Source of the DNA: Candidatus Mediterraneibacter pullistercoris
GTDB lineage: Bacteria > Bacillota > Clostridia > Lachnospirales > Lachnospiraceae
Assembly (NCBI GenBank): GCA_019116885.1
Contig: DXAU01000039.1
Coordinates: forward strand, 1 to 58,965
Reading direction: 5' to 3'
Length of the DNA stretch: 58,965 bases
A program made the translations under genes and the position numbers. Numbering within the stretch: the stretch's first letter is position 1; the number at the start of each line of letters is the position of its first letter. Under the pieces are notes generated by a model. That model made no database searches, was not told where the DNA came from, and saw only the letters and a program-made list of their open reading frames with translations. Below, in pieces: positions 41,712 through 56,725 of the stretch.

Positions 41712-41744
41712 ACTAATATTCCTTTGCATTAGGAGGAGATACCT

Positions 41745-42689
41745 TTGAGAACAATCCGGACGATCGGCATCCCGCGGGGGCTTATGGCTTACCGCGACGG
41801 AGTGCTGTGGAAAGAATTTTTTGAAAGGCTGGGATTTCAGTGTGTCGTAAGCCCCAGAAGCGACAGGGAAATGCTGGAAACAGGAACGGCCCGGGCAGTT
41901 GACGAGACATGCCTTCCTTTTAAGATGTATCTTGGACATGTGATGTGGCTGTTCGGAAAGTGTGATGTTATATTCATCCCGAGGATGGGTGGATATAGCG
42001 AAAGAGAGAAAATGTGTACCCGGTATGAGGCTCTGCCCGACCTGCTCAGAAATATTTTCCGTGAGGAAGGGATCCGGGTGCTCACAGTGAGTTATGACTG
42101 GTATACGAAGACGACGGAAGAGAAAGTGTATCTGGAACTGGGAGCAACTCTTGGCAAATCAAAGAAAGAAGTGAAGAGAGCATACGTCCATGCGAGAAAG
42201 TATCAGGATACATGGATGAAGTCAAAAGAGAAAGGACAGGATCAGGCGCTGGAGAGCGGGAAGATAAAGGTTCTCCTCTCCGGACATCCATATGTACTGC
42301 ACGATGCGTATATGGGCGGAGAGCTGGCGCGTATCCTGCAGAAGCTGGATGCGGAAGTAATTTATACAGATTATGTGGACAGGGAGAGCGCTTTGAAGAA
42401 GAGCTATGATTTCTCCCGTGTGATGCCCTGGCTCATTAACCGGGAGATCACAGGAGCGTCTCTCATACTCCGGCGGAAAGTGGACGGCATCATCCTGGTG
42501 AGCGCCTATCCGTGCGGGCCGGATGCGCTCGTTAATGATATGCTGGTCAGGAAACTGAAAAATGTCCCTGTCCTGAGTCTCACCCTGGACGCCCAGAGCG
42601 GCACGGCAGGAGTAGAGACGAGGATCGAGAGTTTTATAGATATCATCAAATATCAGAAAGCAGGCGGTTATGGAAATAAGGATCGATGA
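41745..42689 (+). CDS. DUF2229/HgdB-like iron-sulfur protein, component 1 of a putative ATP-dependent reductase
   Basis: A 314-residue protein starting at TTG after GGAGGAG. It opens with IGIPRGLMAYRDGVLWKEFFERLGF, the signature of the DUF2229 domain of large CoA-enzyme-activase proteins. Cysteines likely to bind Fe-S clusters are in DETCLPFKMYLGHV (about residue 54), GKCDVIF, REKMCTRYE and SAYPCGPDAL. In many bacteria this domain is part of a single polypeptide of over 1000 residues; here it is a separate subunit. It overlaps the second component gene by 20 bases. Expected role: reductase subunit fed by the activase. Substrate unknown. Confidence 0.82.
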   Translation: MRTIRTIGIPRGLMAYRDGVLWKEFFERLGFQCVVSPRSDREMLETGTARAVDETCLPFKMYLGHVMWLFGKCDVIFIPRMGGYSEREKMCTRYEALPDLLRNIFREEGIRVLTVSYDWYTKTTEEKVYLELGATLGKSKKEVKRAYVHARKYQDTWMKSKEKGQDQALESGKIKVLLSGHPYVLHDAYMGGELARILQKLDAEVIYTDYVDRESALKKSYDFSRVMPWLINREITGASLILRRKVDGIILVSAYPCGPDALVNDMLVRKLKNVPVLSLTLDAQSGTAGVETRIESFIDIIKYQKAGGYGNKDR

Positions 42690-43752
42690 CAGGAAGAAGA
42701 TCGCATTTCCAAGAATCAACCATTATGGTTTTGCGATAAAATATATTGTGGAACAGGCGCTGGGGGCGCAATTCGTACTGCTTCCGCCCGCTACAAAGAC
42801 GACCACAGAGCTTGGCAGCAAATACAGTCCGGATTATGCATGTGCGCCTTTCAAACACAGTCTCGGCAGCCTTATCGAGGCTCTGGAAGCAGGGGCTGAT
42901 GTCCTTGTGGAGACGGGAGGGCTGTGCAGGCTGGACTATTATGGAGCACTGCAGAAAGAGATCATCCGGGAGCTTGGATATCAATGCGAGTTCATTAACC
43001 TTGCGGAATATATGAGCGGAAAGAAAAAGGAGTGGCTGAGGCTTGCCAGGCATTTAAGTCCGAAGCTCAAACCTGCAAAGTTTACGGCGGGCGCCTATGA
43101 GGGCGTAAAGATGGCAGGATATATGGATGAGATAGAGGCGGCATACTACAAAAATGCTGCTTTTGAGACAGAGAAAGGGAGCTATAAAAGGGCATACCGC
43201 CAGTTTCTTCTGCGGATGCAGACTGCTGAGAACTGGCAGGAGATTAGGGAAGGATACCGGTCGGTCAAGCAGGCGTTTGATGAGATTGGGACAAGAATTC
43301 CCGAACATCCGGTCAGAATTGGCGTTGTGGGAGAGTACTTTACGATTATGGATGAACACTCCAATCAGTTTCTCCAGGAGAAACTTGTGCGTCTGGGGGC
43401 TTCCGTGCATCGTTTCCTGAATGTCACGAACTGTCATTTCGGGGCGAAAGAGGCAGCGCTCAGACCACGCATCAGGGAGTATGCAGACTACAGTATGGGG
43501 CCTACGACCACATGGACAGTCAATGCGGCGCTGGACTATGCAAAGCAGGGATTTGACGGGATCATCCATGTGAAATCATTCGGGTGTACGCCGGAGATGG
43601 ACGCGATCCCTGTACTCCAGAATATAAGCAGGGACTACCATATCCCGGTACTCTTTTTGAGCTACGATATGCAGGAGAGCGATACGGGGCTGGATACAAG
43701 ACTGGAAGCATTTTATGACATGCTGGAGAGAAAGAAGAAGGTAATACGATGA
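42670..43752 (+). CDS. HgdB/BcrC-like iron-sulfur protein, component 2
   Basis: A 360-residue protein of the 2-hydroxyacyl-CoA dehydratase/double-cubane family. Conserved cysteine-bearing segments are SPDYACAPFKHSLGS (about residue 57), VETGGLCRLDYYG (about 82), NVTNCHFG and VKSFGCTPEMDAIPVLQ (about 308), ending with SYDMQESDTGLDTRLEAF as in family members. It overlaps the gene before by 20 bases and the activase gene after by 4 bases, so the three are translationally coupled. The C-A-P-F-K motif mirrors C-L-P-F-K of component 1, pointing to homologous cluster sites. Confidence 0.85.
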   Translation: MEIRIDDRKKIAFPRINHYGFAIKYIVEQALGAQFVLLPPATKTTTELGSKYSPDYACAPFKHSLGSLIEALEAGADVLVETGGLCRLDYYGALQKEIIRELGYQCEFINLAEYMSGKKKEWLRLARHLSPKLKPAKFTAGAYEGVKMAGYMDEIEAAYYKNAAFETEKGSYKRAYRQFLLRMQTAENWQEIREGYRSVKQAFDEIGTRIPEHPVRIGVVGEYFTIMDEHSNQFLQEKLVRLGASVHRFLNVTNCHFGAKEAALRPRIREYADYSMGPTTTWTVNAALDYAKQGFDGIIHVKSFGCTPEMDAIPVLQNISRDYHIPVLFLSYDMQESDTGLDTRLEAFYDMLERKKKVIR

Positions 43753-44705
43753 GGAAAAAGGCTTATCTCGGGATCGATATTGGTTCCATTTCTACAAAAG
43801 GCGTTATCATTAATGACGAGAATGAGTTCCTCGCGGAGTGCTATCTCTGGACAGAAGGCAACCCGACGCAGGCGACGAAAAACGTACTCAGCGAATTAAA
43901 GAGGCAGTTTGACAGCGAGACATATCAGATCACTGCCTCAGGAACGACAGGGAGTGCAAGAAAACTGGTGGGAAGCATGATCGGAGCCCAGGTGATAAAG
44001 AACGAGATCACGGCTCATGCAGTGGGGACGACGACCCTGCATCCGGATGTGCGCACGATCCTTGAGATCGGCGGACAGGACTCCAAGATCATCTGCGTGG
44101 AAAACGGAGTGGCAGTTGACTATGCCATGAACACTCTGTGCGCTGCCGGAACAGGCGCATTTCTCTCAAGTCAGGCGCACCGGCTTGGCGTAGAAGTAGA
44201 AGAATTTGGGAAGATCGCGCTTAAGGCGGAGAAAGCAGCGCCGATCGCCGCGCGCTGTACGGTGTTTGCAGAGTCGGACCTGGTACACAAGCTGCAGGTG
44301 GGATGTCCGAAAGAAGAGATCATCGCAGGATTGTGCAAGGCGGTCGCGGGCAACTATCTGAATAATGTGGCCAAGGGTAAGAAAATCACCGCGCCTGTCG
44401 TGTTTCAGGGTGGTGTGAGCAAGAACGAAGGCGTGGTCCGCATGTTTGAGGAGGAACTTGGGATGTCGGTCCTGGTGGATGAGAGAGGACATCTCATGGG
44501 CGCTTTCGGCATCGCGGTGCTCGCCAGAGAACAGCAGACAGAGAGAGAATTCTCCTTTGATGTGGCGGAGATGGAGTTCAGGACGCGGGAAGTTAGCTGT
44601 GGGAAATGTGCCAATCACTGTGAGATCATCTGTGTGTACCGCGACGGCGAACTGATCGATGCATGGGGGAACCGCTGTGACAACGGAGCGGTCGCGCAGA
44701 GATGA
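43749..44705 (+). CDS. BadF/HgdC-type ATP-dependent activase
   Basis: A 318-residue ASKHA-fold ATPase that couples ATP hydrolysis to electron transfer. N-terminal phosphate loop GIDIGSISTKGVII (about residues 7-20), ILEIGGQDSK (adenosine/second loop), and the cysteines that hold the intersubunit [4Fe-4S] cluster: NTLCAAGTGAF and AARCTVFAESD. A C-terminal extension (about residues 278-312) adds a Cys-rich patch, SCGKCANHCEIICVYRDG and NRCD, not needed in the minimal activase and perhaps another cluster. Last gene of the three-gene operon. Confidence 0.92.
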   Translation: MRKKAYLGIDIGSISTKGVIINDENEFLAECYLWTEGNPTQATKNVLSELKRQFDSETYQITASGTTGSARKLVGSMIGAQVIKNEITAHAVGTTTLHPDVRTILEIGGQDSKIICVENGVAVDYAMNTLCAAGTGAFLSSQAHRLGVEVEEFGKIALKAEKAAPIAARCTVFAESDLVHKLQVGCPKEEIIAGLCKAVAGNYLNNVAKGKKITAPVVFQGGVSKNEGVVRMFEEELGMSVLVDERGHLMGAFGIAVLAREQQTEREFSFDVAEMEFRTREVSCGKCANHCEIICVYRDGELIDAWGNRCDNGAVAQR

Positions 44706-54462: not shown

Positions 54463-54562
54463 ACGCTGTTCGTTACAACTGGGGAATAGCTGGATGGAAC
54501 TGAGTATATAAGACTAACGCAGCGTGTTGTACCAGCCCGAAAGCATAAGGAGGAAAATTACA

Positions 54563-56725
54563 GTGAAACAAAATTCGGTGGGAAGAGTGACAATACCTAC
54601 AGATGTGGATGTAGTACCGGAGACTCTTGAACTCTTAAAACGGTGGGGGGCAGATGCGATCCGGGACTGCGATGGCACAGATTACCCGGAAGAACTTAAA
54701 AATGTAGATGCAAAGGTGTACTCTACATATTATACGACCAGAAAGAATAATGAATGGGCCAAGGCGAATCCGGATGAGATTCAGCAGATGTATATCATGA
54801 CTCCCTTTTATACAGCAGTAGACAGTGAACTGTCGATCCACCTTATGAATCATCTCTATCCGGATATGCTGAAAGTCAATGACCATGATGATATCACAAG
54901 ATGGTGGGAAGTGATCGACCGCACTACAGGGGAAATTGTTCCGACAGACCAGTGGAGTTATGACAACAGATCCGGAGACGTGACTATTCATAATGCACAG
55001 GCTTTTCATGATTACACTGTAAGTTTCCTTGCATATATTATGTGGGACCCGGTGCATATGTACAATGCAGTGACAAACGGATGGGAAAACTTTGAAAAGC
55101 AGATCACATTTGATGTGCGCCAGCCCAAAACGCATAAGTTCTCGATGGAGAGATTAAGAAAGTTTATTGCAGATAATCCTCATGTAGATGTGCTGCGTTA
55201 TACGACCTTCTTCCATCAGTTTACGCTGGTCTTCGATGAGCTTGCAAGAGAGAAGTACGTAGACTGGTATGGATACTCGGCGTCGGTAAGCCCGTACATC
55301 CTGGAGCAGTTCGAGAAAGAAGCAGGATATAAGTTCCGGCCGGAGTTCATTATCGATCAGGGCTACATGAACAATACATACCGCATCCCATCCAAAGAGT
55401 TTCAGGACTTCCAGTCATTCCAGAGAAGAGAAGTGGCGAAGCTGGCCAAAGAGATGGTCGATATTACTCATGAGTGCGGAAAAGAGGCTATGATGTTCCT
55501 TGGCGACCACTGGATTGGAATGGAACCGTTCATGGACGAGTTTAAATCAATCGGGCTGGATGCCGTGGTTGGCAGTGTGGGAAATGGTGCGACTCTTCGT
55601 CTGATCAGCGACATTGAAGGTGTGAACTACAGAGAAGGACGTCTGCTTCCTTACTTTTTCCCGGATGTGTTCCATGAAGGTGGAGATCCGGTAAAGGAAG
55701 CAAAAGTAAACTGGGTGACGGCAAGACGTGCAATCTTAAGAAAGCCGATCGACAGGATTGGGTATGGCGGGTACTTAAAGCTTGCGCTTCAGTTTCCTGA
55801 TTTTGTGGATTATGTAGAGAGCGTCTGCAATGAGTTCCGCGAGCTCTACGACAATATAAAGGGCACGACTCCGTATTGCATTAAGAAAGCAGCAGTATTA
55901 AACTGCTGGGGCAGGATGCGCGCATGGGGGAACCATATGGTACATCACGCGATCTATTATAAGCAGAACTACTCTTACGCAGGTGTGATCGAGGCCCTAA
56001 GCGGAGCTCCGTTTGACGTGGAGTTCATCAGTTTTGACGATATCAGGAATCATCCGGAGATTCTGGATGATATCGATGTGATCCTCAATGTAGGTGACGC
56101 AGATACTGCGTATACAGGCGGAGAGAACTGGACAGATGAGAAAATCGTTACCGCAGTGAAGAGATTTATCTATAACGGCGGCGGGTTTATCGGTGTCGGC
56201 GAACCGGCGGCTCATCAGTACGAGGGACATTTCTTCCAGCTTGCCACAGTGATGGGAGTGGAGAAAGAAACAGGGTTTACGCTCAATGTGGACAAGTATA
56301 ACTGGGAGGAGCACGACCACTTTATAAAAGAGGACTGTACAAAGGACATCGATTTCGGCGAGGGCAAGAAGAGCATTTATGCTCTGGATGGAACAGAGAT
56401 TCTTGTACAGCGCGACAAGGAAGTGCAGATGGCGGTCAGAGAGTTCGGCAAAGGGCGCTGCGTATATATCAGCGGACTTCCCTACAGTTTTGAGAACAGC
56501 CGTATACTGCACCGTTCGATTATCTGGTCCAGCCACGATGAAGAGAACCTTTACAAATGGTTCAGCTCGAACTTTAACGTAGAAGTACACGCCTATGTAA
56601 AGAACGGAAAATACTGTGTTGTTAATAATACATATGAACCTCAGAGCACTGTTGTGTATAAAGGCGATGGAACAAGTTTTGAACTGGATCTGGGCGCAAA
56701 CGAGATCCGCTGGTATGAGATCTGA
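54563..56725 (+). CDS. 1,3-beta-Galactosyl-N-acetylhexosamine phosphorylase (GH112)
   Basis: A 720-residue cytoplasmic enzyme that phosphorolyses lacto-N-biose or galacto-N-biose to galactose 1-phosphate and GlcNAc or GalNAc. The sequence matches GH112 throughout: GRVTIPTDVDVVPETLELLKRWGADAIRDCDGTDYP at the N-terminus, SVSPYILEQFEKEAGYKFRPEFIIDQG with the catalytic acid region, MMFLGDHWIGMEPF, NCWGRMRAWGNHM, GEPAAHQYEGHFFQL, and a C-terminal beta domain ending LGANEIRWYEI. AAGGAGG sets GTG 54563; length equals the family. It is preceded by a palindromic operator and is divergent from the sulfatase. Confidence 0.96.
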   Translation: MKQNSVGRVTIPTDVDVVPETLELLKRWGADAIRDCDGTDYPEELKNVDAKVYSTYYTTRKNNEWAKANPDEIQQMYIMTPFYTAVDSELSIHLMNHLYPDMLKVNDHDDITRWWEVIDRTTGEIVPTDQWSYDNRSGDVTIHNAQAFHDYTVSFLAYIMWDPVHMYNAVTNGWENFEKQITFDVRQPKTHKFSMERLRKFIADNPHVDVLRYTTFFHQFTLVFDELAREKYVDWYGYSASVSPYILEQFEKEAGYKFRPEFIIDQGYMNNTYRIPSKEFQDFQSFQRREVAKLAKEMVDITHECGKEAMMFLGDHWIGMEPFMDEFKSIGLDAVVGSVGNGATLRLISDIEGVNYREGRLLPYFFPDVFHEGGDPVKEAKVNWVTARRAILRKPIDRIGYGGYLKLALQFPDFVDYVESVCNEFRELYDNIKGTTPYCIKKAAVLNCWGRMRAWGNHMVHHAIYYKQNYSYAGVIEALSGAPFDVEFISFDDIRNHPEILDDIDVILNVGDADTAYTGGENWTDEKIVTAVKRFIYNGGGFIGVGEPAAHQYEGHFFQLATVMGVEKETGFTLNVDKYNWEEHDHFIKEDCTKDIDFGEGKKSIYALDGTEILVQRDKEVQMAVREFGKGRCVYISGLPYSFENSRILHRSIIWSSHDEENLYKWFSSNFNVEVHAYVKNGKYCVVNNTYEPQSTVVYKGDGTSFELDLGANEIRWYEI

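Follow-up and report, generated by a model that had tools for sequence, protein, structure and literature searches.

A three-gene reductase locus

The window analyzed here is a whole 58,965-nucleotide stretch of Candidatus Mediterraneibacter pullistercoris (contig DXAU01000039.1, assembly GCA_019116885.1), and on its forward strand it carries three tightly coupled genes. Gene 1 (P0001; 41745–42689) starts at a TTG codon and encodes a DUF2229 'Red1'-like subunit of 314 residues; an AGGAGG ribosome-binding site, read directly at 41731–41736 on the same strand, lies 8 bp upstream of the TTG. Gene 2 (P0002; 42670–43752, forward strand) encodes a second HgdB-like subunit, 'Red2', of 360 residues, and gene 3 (P0003; 43749–44705, forward strand) a BadF/HgdC-type ATP-dependent activase of 318 residues. 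The overlaps are exactly 20 bp between genes 1 and 2 and exactly 4 bp between genes 2 and 3, just as an earlier sequence-only reading of this DNA had described.

This arrangement is conserved. Among 39 close loci (a count that takes in the window itself and one duplicate) gene 1 adjoins gene 2 in all 39, and the activase follows 3' of gene 2 in 38; in locus L040 the activase is broken by a stop. Forty more distant loci were hand-picked among the best matches listed, and in this non-random sample gene 2 adjoins gene 1 in 40 of 40 and the activase then follows in 31 of 40. The conserved adjacency of the three genes is far beyond chance, and the split three-gene form is widespread.

Twenty genes of the window were scanned with Pfam (17 lie within 31.4–56.7 kb), and none is a CoA transferase, an acyl-CoA dehydrogenase or an electron-transfer flavoprotein, in agreement with the sequence-only reading, which had noted that none is adjacent. 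Comparison with other genomes likewise found no pathway enzyme near the trio: clustering of neighbors at 39 window-clade loci found no gene conserved beside it across groups and no transporter, regulator or pathway gene travelling with it. Apart from general ABC-transporter genes and open reading frames on the strand opposite the trio, the neighbors held in common in these 39 loci are common to closer relatives only. The clustering used crude gene calls, worst in the high-GC loci, and could have overlooked weak context.

The same genome also encodes a fused homologue of 1440 residues, in which DUF2229 and a further reductase domain are joined to two activase domains; this bears out the earlier remark that domains often fused into one large protein are split here; the trio shares 25% identity with it. 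DUF2229 was found in this genome on contigs C16 and C27 only, and a SpoVAD gene is on contig C2. Sporulation context is absent at the window's own trio, and a SpoVAC-like gene lies about 5 kb from the trio in just one of 45 window-clade loci (L075).

Domains and predicted folds

The Pfam assignments anticipated for the three proteins (DUF2229, HGD-D and BcrAD_BadFG) were borne out. The gene 1 protein matches DUF2229 at 161.4 bits (cut-off 29.4) and has an HGD-D tail, and the gene 2 protein matches HGD-D at 37.7 bits (cut-off 28.4) and, below the cut-off of 29.4, DUF2229 at 26.9 bits. The gene 3 protein matches BcrAD_BadFG (PF01869) at 162.5 bits, the acyl-CoA dehydratase activase model TIGR00241 at 204.5 bits (cut-off 125.4), and the 2-hydroxyglutaryl-CoA dehydratase activator of structure 1hux with a phmmer E-value of 1.9e-41.

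Sequence-profile matches of the reductase subunits to solved structures are weak: the first subunit has only a weak match to a double-cubane cluster protein (DCCP; 0.029), and the second has one to a dehydratase beta subunit (0.00091). In the second-subunit search a designed repeat protein ranked at the top, from one short match repeated. Because these matches are weak, folds were compared instead. A BCR/HAD fold is predicted over the full length of both P0001 and P0002, with scores above those of unrelated chains; as the top single structural match of both models, DCCP narrowly outranks HAD and BCR. In the Red1 model the helical middle part is reduced to two helices, as against four in Red2, and the substrate site may therefore differ. 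Pfam and the predicted folds thus agree on a BCR/HAD-type reductase system of two homologous subunits and an activase, as had been proposed.

Invariant and clade-specific cysteines

Each reductase subunit has an invariant set of three cysteines. In Red1 these presumed cluster ligands are C56 (41910–41912), C91 (42015–42017) and C257 (42513–42515), with C56 kept in 112 of 113 aligned proteins and the other two in 113 of 113; in Red2 they are C58 (42841–42843), C86 (42925–42927) and C306 (43585–43587), each kept in 78 of 78, and in alignment C306 matches the C-D-P-E cysteine of the dehydratase beta subunit 3o3m_B. All of these codons are on the forward strand. The sequence-only reading had pointed to matching C-(L/A)-P-F-K motifs in the two subunits; C-L-P-F-K and C-A-P-F-K are indeed present, although their cysteines are C56 and C58 and not C54 and C57. 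Red1 also has a clade-specific extra cysteine, C73 (41961–41963, forward strand), which is present in 42 of 45 proteins of the window clade, in 2 of 33 of a sister group described below, and in none of 35 fused homologues.

The activase carries C131 (44139–44141) and C170 (44256–44258) on the forward strand, both found in 67 of 67 aligned activases; we take these, after the HgdC family, to be the ligands of a [4Fe-4S] cluster shared by an activase dimer. The extra C-terminal cysteine-rich patch noticed earlier is real and is retained in 35 of 36 close relatives. It comprises C284, C287, C291, C295 and C310 and spans 44598–44678 of the forward strand, from the C284 codon (44598–44600) to that of C310 (44676–44678). 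C284, C287 and C291 are present in 66 of the 67 aligned activases and C310 in 65, and C295 is found in 41 of 42 window-clade proteins and 1 of 25 of the sister group. Written strictly as C-x2-C-x3-C...G-x-R-C, a feature that this analysis noticed ahead of Red1 in the fused homologues and did not draw from the literature, this tail is present in P0003, in 54 of 67 stand-alone activases and in 26 of 35 fused pieces. The solved activases matched by P0003 are just 243–276 residues long.

Phylogeny and distribution

Trees were made for all three genes by quick searches with SH-aLRT support only. In the Red1 tree, which took in no characterized PlsA or Ger sequence, a branch with support 97 separates the 35 fused rows from the rest, and the window falls outside them in a separate clade of 45 rows (99). 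In the gene 2 and gene 3 trees a branch at 100 likewise sets the window clade apart, and the groupings of the three genes are concordant.

Among the matches listed, 7 of the family's 150 genomes hold the trio, and the named genomes with it are mostly of the Lachnospiraceae and Eggerthellaceae, both gut groups; a cultured carrier is Catenibacillus scindens (locus L054). All of the trio genomes searched hold a fused homologue too (7 of 7 and 9 of 9, with one genome probably common to both sets), and the trio is therefore unlikely to be simply their PlsA. Its place outside the fused rows, together with the 25% identity to the fused homologue, makes the transfer of function uncertain.

A sporulation-linked sister group

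A sister group has the same three genes in the same order and with the same invariant cysteines as the window trio. With the fused rows as root, the gene 1 tree shows it as 4 + 29 rows at an open fork and not as one clade; the gene 2 and gene 3 trees, which are unrooted, place it on one side of a branch. The window-clade cysteines are mostly missing from it (C73 and C295 as given above, and C116 in 0 of 25).

Of 33 sister-group loci, 24 carry sporulation genes on the stretch that holds the trio; counted over the fetched Bacillota loci alone, the figure is 24 of 27. Across 398 Bacillota genomes, SpoVAD scored over its cut-off in 264 of the 274 with a strong DUF2229 match and in 73 of the 124 without one, counts that ignore kinship and use a best E-value of 1e-38 or lower as a proxy for the stand-alone form; removal of the 7 genomes known to have a window-clade copy leaves 259 of 267. 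Among the matches listed, a literature search found no paper that pairs a spoVA name with BCR/HAD or activase terms, and spoVAD and plasmalogen were mentioned together once, with no link drawn between them in the available part of that text. The available portions of the sporulation literature searched mention no dehydratase or activase, and a search on COG3580, COG3581, COG1924 or an activase of unknown function gave no matches. According to PMC13274423 (2026), the Bacillota genomes screened there hold further PlsA homologues that lack an activation domain and have an unclear role; the sister group is perhaps among these.

Relationships to known systems and interpretation

PlsA, the anaerobic plasmalogen synthase, and Ger, a glycerol ester reductase, are the nearest characterized relatives, and both reduce lipid esters; neither was named in the sequence-only reading. 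As described in the available parts of the sources, PlsA has the architecture Act1-Act2-Red1-Red2 (PMC12838417), PlsA/PlsR turns an ester into a vinyl ether (PMC9702350, PMC8788747, PMC10191378), and Ger, a PlsA-like protein with activation and reduction domains, forms an alkyl ether, PlsA and Ger being at present indistinguishable by sequence alone (PMC13274423). PlsA, PlsR and Ger-candidate sequences named in PMC8788747 are Q8XL48, Q8XL47, Q835P9 and locus Tmari_0479. The 1440-residue fused homologue of the window's genome shows the PlsA architecture. By Pfam, the trio has the PlsA/Ger content of a DUF2229 Red1, an HGD-D-like Red2 and a BadF activase, and it resembles PlsA/PlsAR of Clostridium perfringens, Enterococcus and Lactococcus in these kinds of parts. 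The likeness extends to the fused homologues, which have the Red1 three-cysteine set in 35 of 35 and commonly the cysteine tail. Unlike PlsA, the trio is three genes ordered Red1-Red2-Act, and its single activase gene, in place of two fused domains, was counted against a PlsA-like reading. Ger (Thermotogota, Desulfatibaculum), likened to the trio by description only, differs in its two activation domains and its alkyl ether products.

We tentatively favor a reading in which the trio forms a single radical enzyme of the BCR/HAD superfamily, on its PlsA/Ger (DUF2229) branch, built as three separate subunits and with a lipid ester as its most likely substrate. Sequence and models show the gene structure, the conserved order, the folds, the invariant cysteine sets and the family branch, whereas the electron transfer by ATP, the cluster types and the stoichiometry are drawn from the family. 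By analogy with it, a dimer of the gene 3 activase would hold one [4Fe-4S] cluster between its subunits on C131 and C170, bind and split ATP, and drive low-potential electrons into a heterodimer of the gene 1 and gene 2 proteins. In each of these, three cysteines would bind one [4Fe-4S] cluster, leaving a free iron site that would reduce the substrate by single electrons. The weakest part of this reading is the substrate, which, from the precedent of PlsA and Ger, would most likely be the acyl-ester carbonyl of a lipid; the product would then be a vinyl ether, an alkyl ether or something related.

The cysteines bear on the type of enzyme. In the available part of PMC11971306, the double-cubane ligands of BzdN are six cysteines (Cys36/73/100/263/293/327), and BzdO has a single active-site [4Fe-4S] on three (Cys95/128/380); the one invariant three-cysteine set per subunit of the trio resembles the single-cluster BzdO and not BzdN, and was counted for a single-cluster enzyme. 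The double-cubane-type reductase of a small substrate put forward in the sequence-only reading shares a predicted fold and, in DCCP with DCCP-R, a BadF-type activase with the trio, and yet it was rejected on this cysteine count and is very unlikely: three conserved cysteines in Red2 and three in Red1 (four in the window clade) stand against six, P0002 scores 17.6 bits on the double-cubane model NF040772 (cut-off 350) and P0001 has no match, and DCCP, per the same available text, is a homodimer with a double cubane in each monomer, unlike the two different subunits here. What stands from that reading is a split BCR/HAD-type reductase with no pathway enzyme nearby. Scarcely better placed is the view that the subunits belong to a benzoyl-CoA reductase or a 2-hydroxyacyl-CoA dehydratase whose remaining pathway genes lie elsewhere. 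The 2-hydroxyisocaproyl-CoA dehydratase HadBC and the class I benzoyl-CoA reductase BzdNO are, like the trio, heterodimers with an activase and share its superfamily and fold, with the BzdO three-cysteine site in common; they differ in acting on CoA esters and in their shorter activases (269–276 residues). This reading was rejected on equivalog cut-offs (HadC-type model NF052456, 11.6 versus 700; bzdN, 14.6 versus 453.8; bzdQ, 91.5 versus 380.2; benzoyl-CoA reductase A, bcrA, 123.4 versus 578) and on the neighborhood, the 20 window genes scanned including no CoA-ester pathway gene.

It is about as improbable that the trio has no reductase reaction of its own and instead activates another enzyme reductively or supplies it with electrons, or that it carries out TudS-like sulfur transfer. 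The extra cysteine tail of the activase could pass electrons, and the superfamily includes TudS, a one-domain sulfur-transfer member (PMC11971306, available part); against this, no conserved partner gene was found, and the three-cysteine set is kept in both subunits. A more serious competitor, if still somewhat unlikely, is an enzyme built in the same way, a single-cluster reductase driven by ATP, whose substrate is not a lipid but a small soluble molecule such as an aromatic or dietary gut compound. The patchy distribution, the prevalence of gut groups among the named genomes, the position of the clade outside the fused rows and its own extra cysteines C73 and C295 would fit such an enzyme; the clustering, however, revealed no transporter, regulator or pathway gene travelling with the trio, and the DUF2229-type enzymes found described act on lipids.

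The characterized members of the DUF2229 branch found described are plasmalogen and ether-lipid reductases. At the 40 hand-picked loci the stand-alone homologues always have a second reductase subunit, and at 31 of them an adjoining activase of their own; stand-alone homologues fall into two groups, the window clade and the sister group. Two testable questions arise: which substrate the trio acts on, and why an enzyme of this kind is encoded beside the genes of the spore dipicolinate channel (spoVA). As a speculative and rather improbable answer, anaerobic spore-formers could have a dedicated ATP-driven radical reductase beside spoIIA-sigF-spoVA that modifies a lipid or other component of the developing spore. 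The window trio could share that ancestry while lying away from the sporulation locus; exchanged between Lachnospiraceae and Eggerthellaceae and having gained conserved cysteines of its own, it could make another ether lipid or reduced product not yet described.

The three genes and their surroundings

The three genes all lie on the plus strand. Gene 1 (P0001; 41745-42689) has a TTG start behind AGGAGG and encodes a DUF2229 domain with an HGD-D tail, gene 2 (P0002; 42670-43752) encodes an HGD-D protein, and gene 3 (P0003; 43749-44705) encodes a BcrAD_BadFG / acyl-CoA dehydratase activase. Overlaps of 20 bp (genes 1 and 2) and 4 bp (genes 2 and 3) are read in the window, and the Pfam and NCBIfam domain names agree with those proposed, which confirms the trio described in the sequence-only reading. 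The neighbors are ordinary. Genes for ABC transporters, a GntR regulator and a DUF4854 protein lie upstream, and those for an AraC regulator and a binding-protein-dependent transporter lie downstream. The claim that no substrate enzyme lies nearby also stands: a scan of 20 genes in the window, 17 of which lie within 31.4-56.7 kb, gave no CoA transferase, acyl-CoA dehydrogenase or ETF. Interpretation of the trio as a BCR/HAD-type reductase with split domains is retained, but assignment to the double-cubane type is not supported. Further along, 54524-56725 encodes lacto-N-biose phosphorylase, a gut-glycan enzyme.

Relationship to PlsA and Ger

The nearest CHARACTERISED relatives have the PlsA-type build, and include the related Ger. 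PlsA is described as comprising Act1, Act2, Red1 and Red2 (PMC12838417) and, alone or with PlsR, converts the phospholipid sn-1 acyl ester to the plasmalogen vinyl ether (PMC9702350, PMC8788747, PMC10191378); Ger has two activation domains and yields alkyl ethers (PMC13274423). The genome carrying the window also encodes a fused 1440-aa protein of the same kind of build as PlsA, in which two activase domains and a Cys patch are joined in one chain with DUF2229 and a second reductase domain. Because PlsA and Ger cannot at present be separated by sequence alone (PMC13274423), we assign it to neither. By eye, its gene (L070:5740-10062, contig C16) lies near the glycolytic genes for pyruvate kinase, phosphoglycerate mutase, tpi, pgk and gapdh.

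The Cys patch noted earlier at the end of the activase has a counterpart in fused proteins, behind their second activase domain; a strict pattern recovers it in 26 of 35 pieces. We infer that the three chains together make up a single enzyme of the PlsA/Ger branch; the trio is a three-subunit relative of PlsA and Ger, itself uncharacterised. Screened Bacillota genomes are reported to contain further PlsA homologues that lack an activation domain and whose role is unclear (PMC13274423). Iron-sulfur enzymes of the trio's kind are likely to be oxygen-sensitive; aerobic function is reported for a Lactococcus PlsA (PMC12838417).

Two main clades are seen among the fused proteins. One (L016-L020, L023, L024, L026, L090, L095) has the Red2 motif D-I-C-F-P and the other (L001, L021, L022, L025, L027-L037, L091-L094, L096-L100) has D-A/I-C-Y-P; L015 stands apart from both. 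These clades might correspond to different ether products.

Distribution and phylogeny

Gene 1 matches are found in 147 of 150 genomes of the window's family, and among the rows listed only seven genomes (G000, G021, G025, G028, G065, G067 and G103) have a stand-alone gene of the window's type; all seven also encode a fused homologue. Among named genomes, 32 loci were found, most of them from Mediterraneibacter and other Lachnospiraceae or from Slackia, Adlercreutzia and other Eggerthellaceae, and one of them from a Bacilli MAG; a fused homologue is present in all nine of these genomes that were searched (one is probably G067). In each of 39 loci, of which one is a duplicate, gene 2 lies beside gene 1, and an activase comes next in 38; none was found in L068, and no neighbor gene shared between groups was found across the 39. 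In one of the 38, a MAG locus, the activase (L040:7996-8943) is interrupted by a single in-frame stop codon, through either assembly error or decay.

More widely, the gene 1 profile has matches in 348 of 398 Bacillota genomes, fused forms included, and in 60 of 198 genomes of Actinomycetota, the phylum of Adlercreutzia. Forty further stand-alone loci were picked from the best matches listed; gene 2 adjoins gene 1 in all of them, and the activase adjoins, in the window's order, in 31. In the gene 1 tree, seven of the 40 fall inside the window clade (45 rows, support 99), the other 33 being the remaining stand-alone rows, here called the sister group, and 35 fused rows form one side of a branch with support 97. 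This tree is a quick search with SH-aLRT support only, and does not join the 33 sister-group rows as one clade; in the gene 2 (78 rows) and gene 3 (67 rows) trees a single branch with support 100 divides the window clade from the sister group. Cysteines C73 of gene 1 (41961-41963) and C295 of the activase (44631-44633) are conserved almost only in the window clade.

Proposed working and substrate

From family knowledge, an ATP-using activase dimer would push very-low-potential electrons into the reductase heterodimer, and the substrate would be reduced in one-electron steps at an open iron site of the latter. Since the fused enzyme and the trio are both present in the genomes checked, we argue that their roles differ. 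A lipid ester would be our first choice of substrate, because the DUF2229-type enzymes found described act on one, and this choice is the weak point of the proposal. The main rival is a small soluble compound, to which the patchy distribution of window-type trios and their separate clade both point.

Sporulation genes beside the sister group

Sporulation genes are present on the fetched stretch in 24 of 33 sister-group loci (L163, L164, L166, L168-L171, L173-L176 and L184-L196, with spoIIA-sigF and/or spoVA), any SpoVA gene in 22 and SigF with SpoIIAB in 21. The nine loci without them on that stretch are three from Bacillota and all six from Actinomycetota; in the window clade, one of 45 loci has any sporulation gene. 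In L170 (1037-10949), for example, the trio comes after genes for a SpoIIAA-like STAS protein, a SpoIIAB-like HATPase, a SigF-like sigma-70 family factor, SpoVAA, a further protein, SpoVAC, SpoVAD, SpoVAC/AEb, SpoVAE and GerA/SpoVAF, in that order. Across the 398 Bacillota genomes, in a count that ignores kinship, SpoVAD is present in 264 of 274 with a strong DUF2229 match (best E <= 1e-38, a proxy for the stand-alone form) versus 73 of 124 without. The control genome of Bacillus subtilis, an aerobic spore-former, has a SpoVAD match and no DUF2229 match.

Five Actinomycetota trios of the sister group (L178-L182), without sporulation genes, have by eye an ApbE-like gene beside or near the trio, and L178, L181 and L182 also have NfnAB-like genes; these may hint at a flavin-based electron supply. 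No paper linking DUF2229 trio genes to sporulation was found among the open-licence papers listed. Of all the results, the linkage to sporulation genes seen in the trio's sister group is the most surprising.
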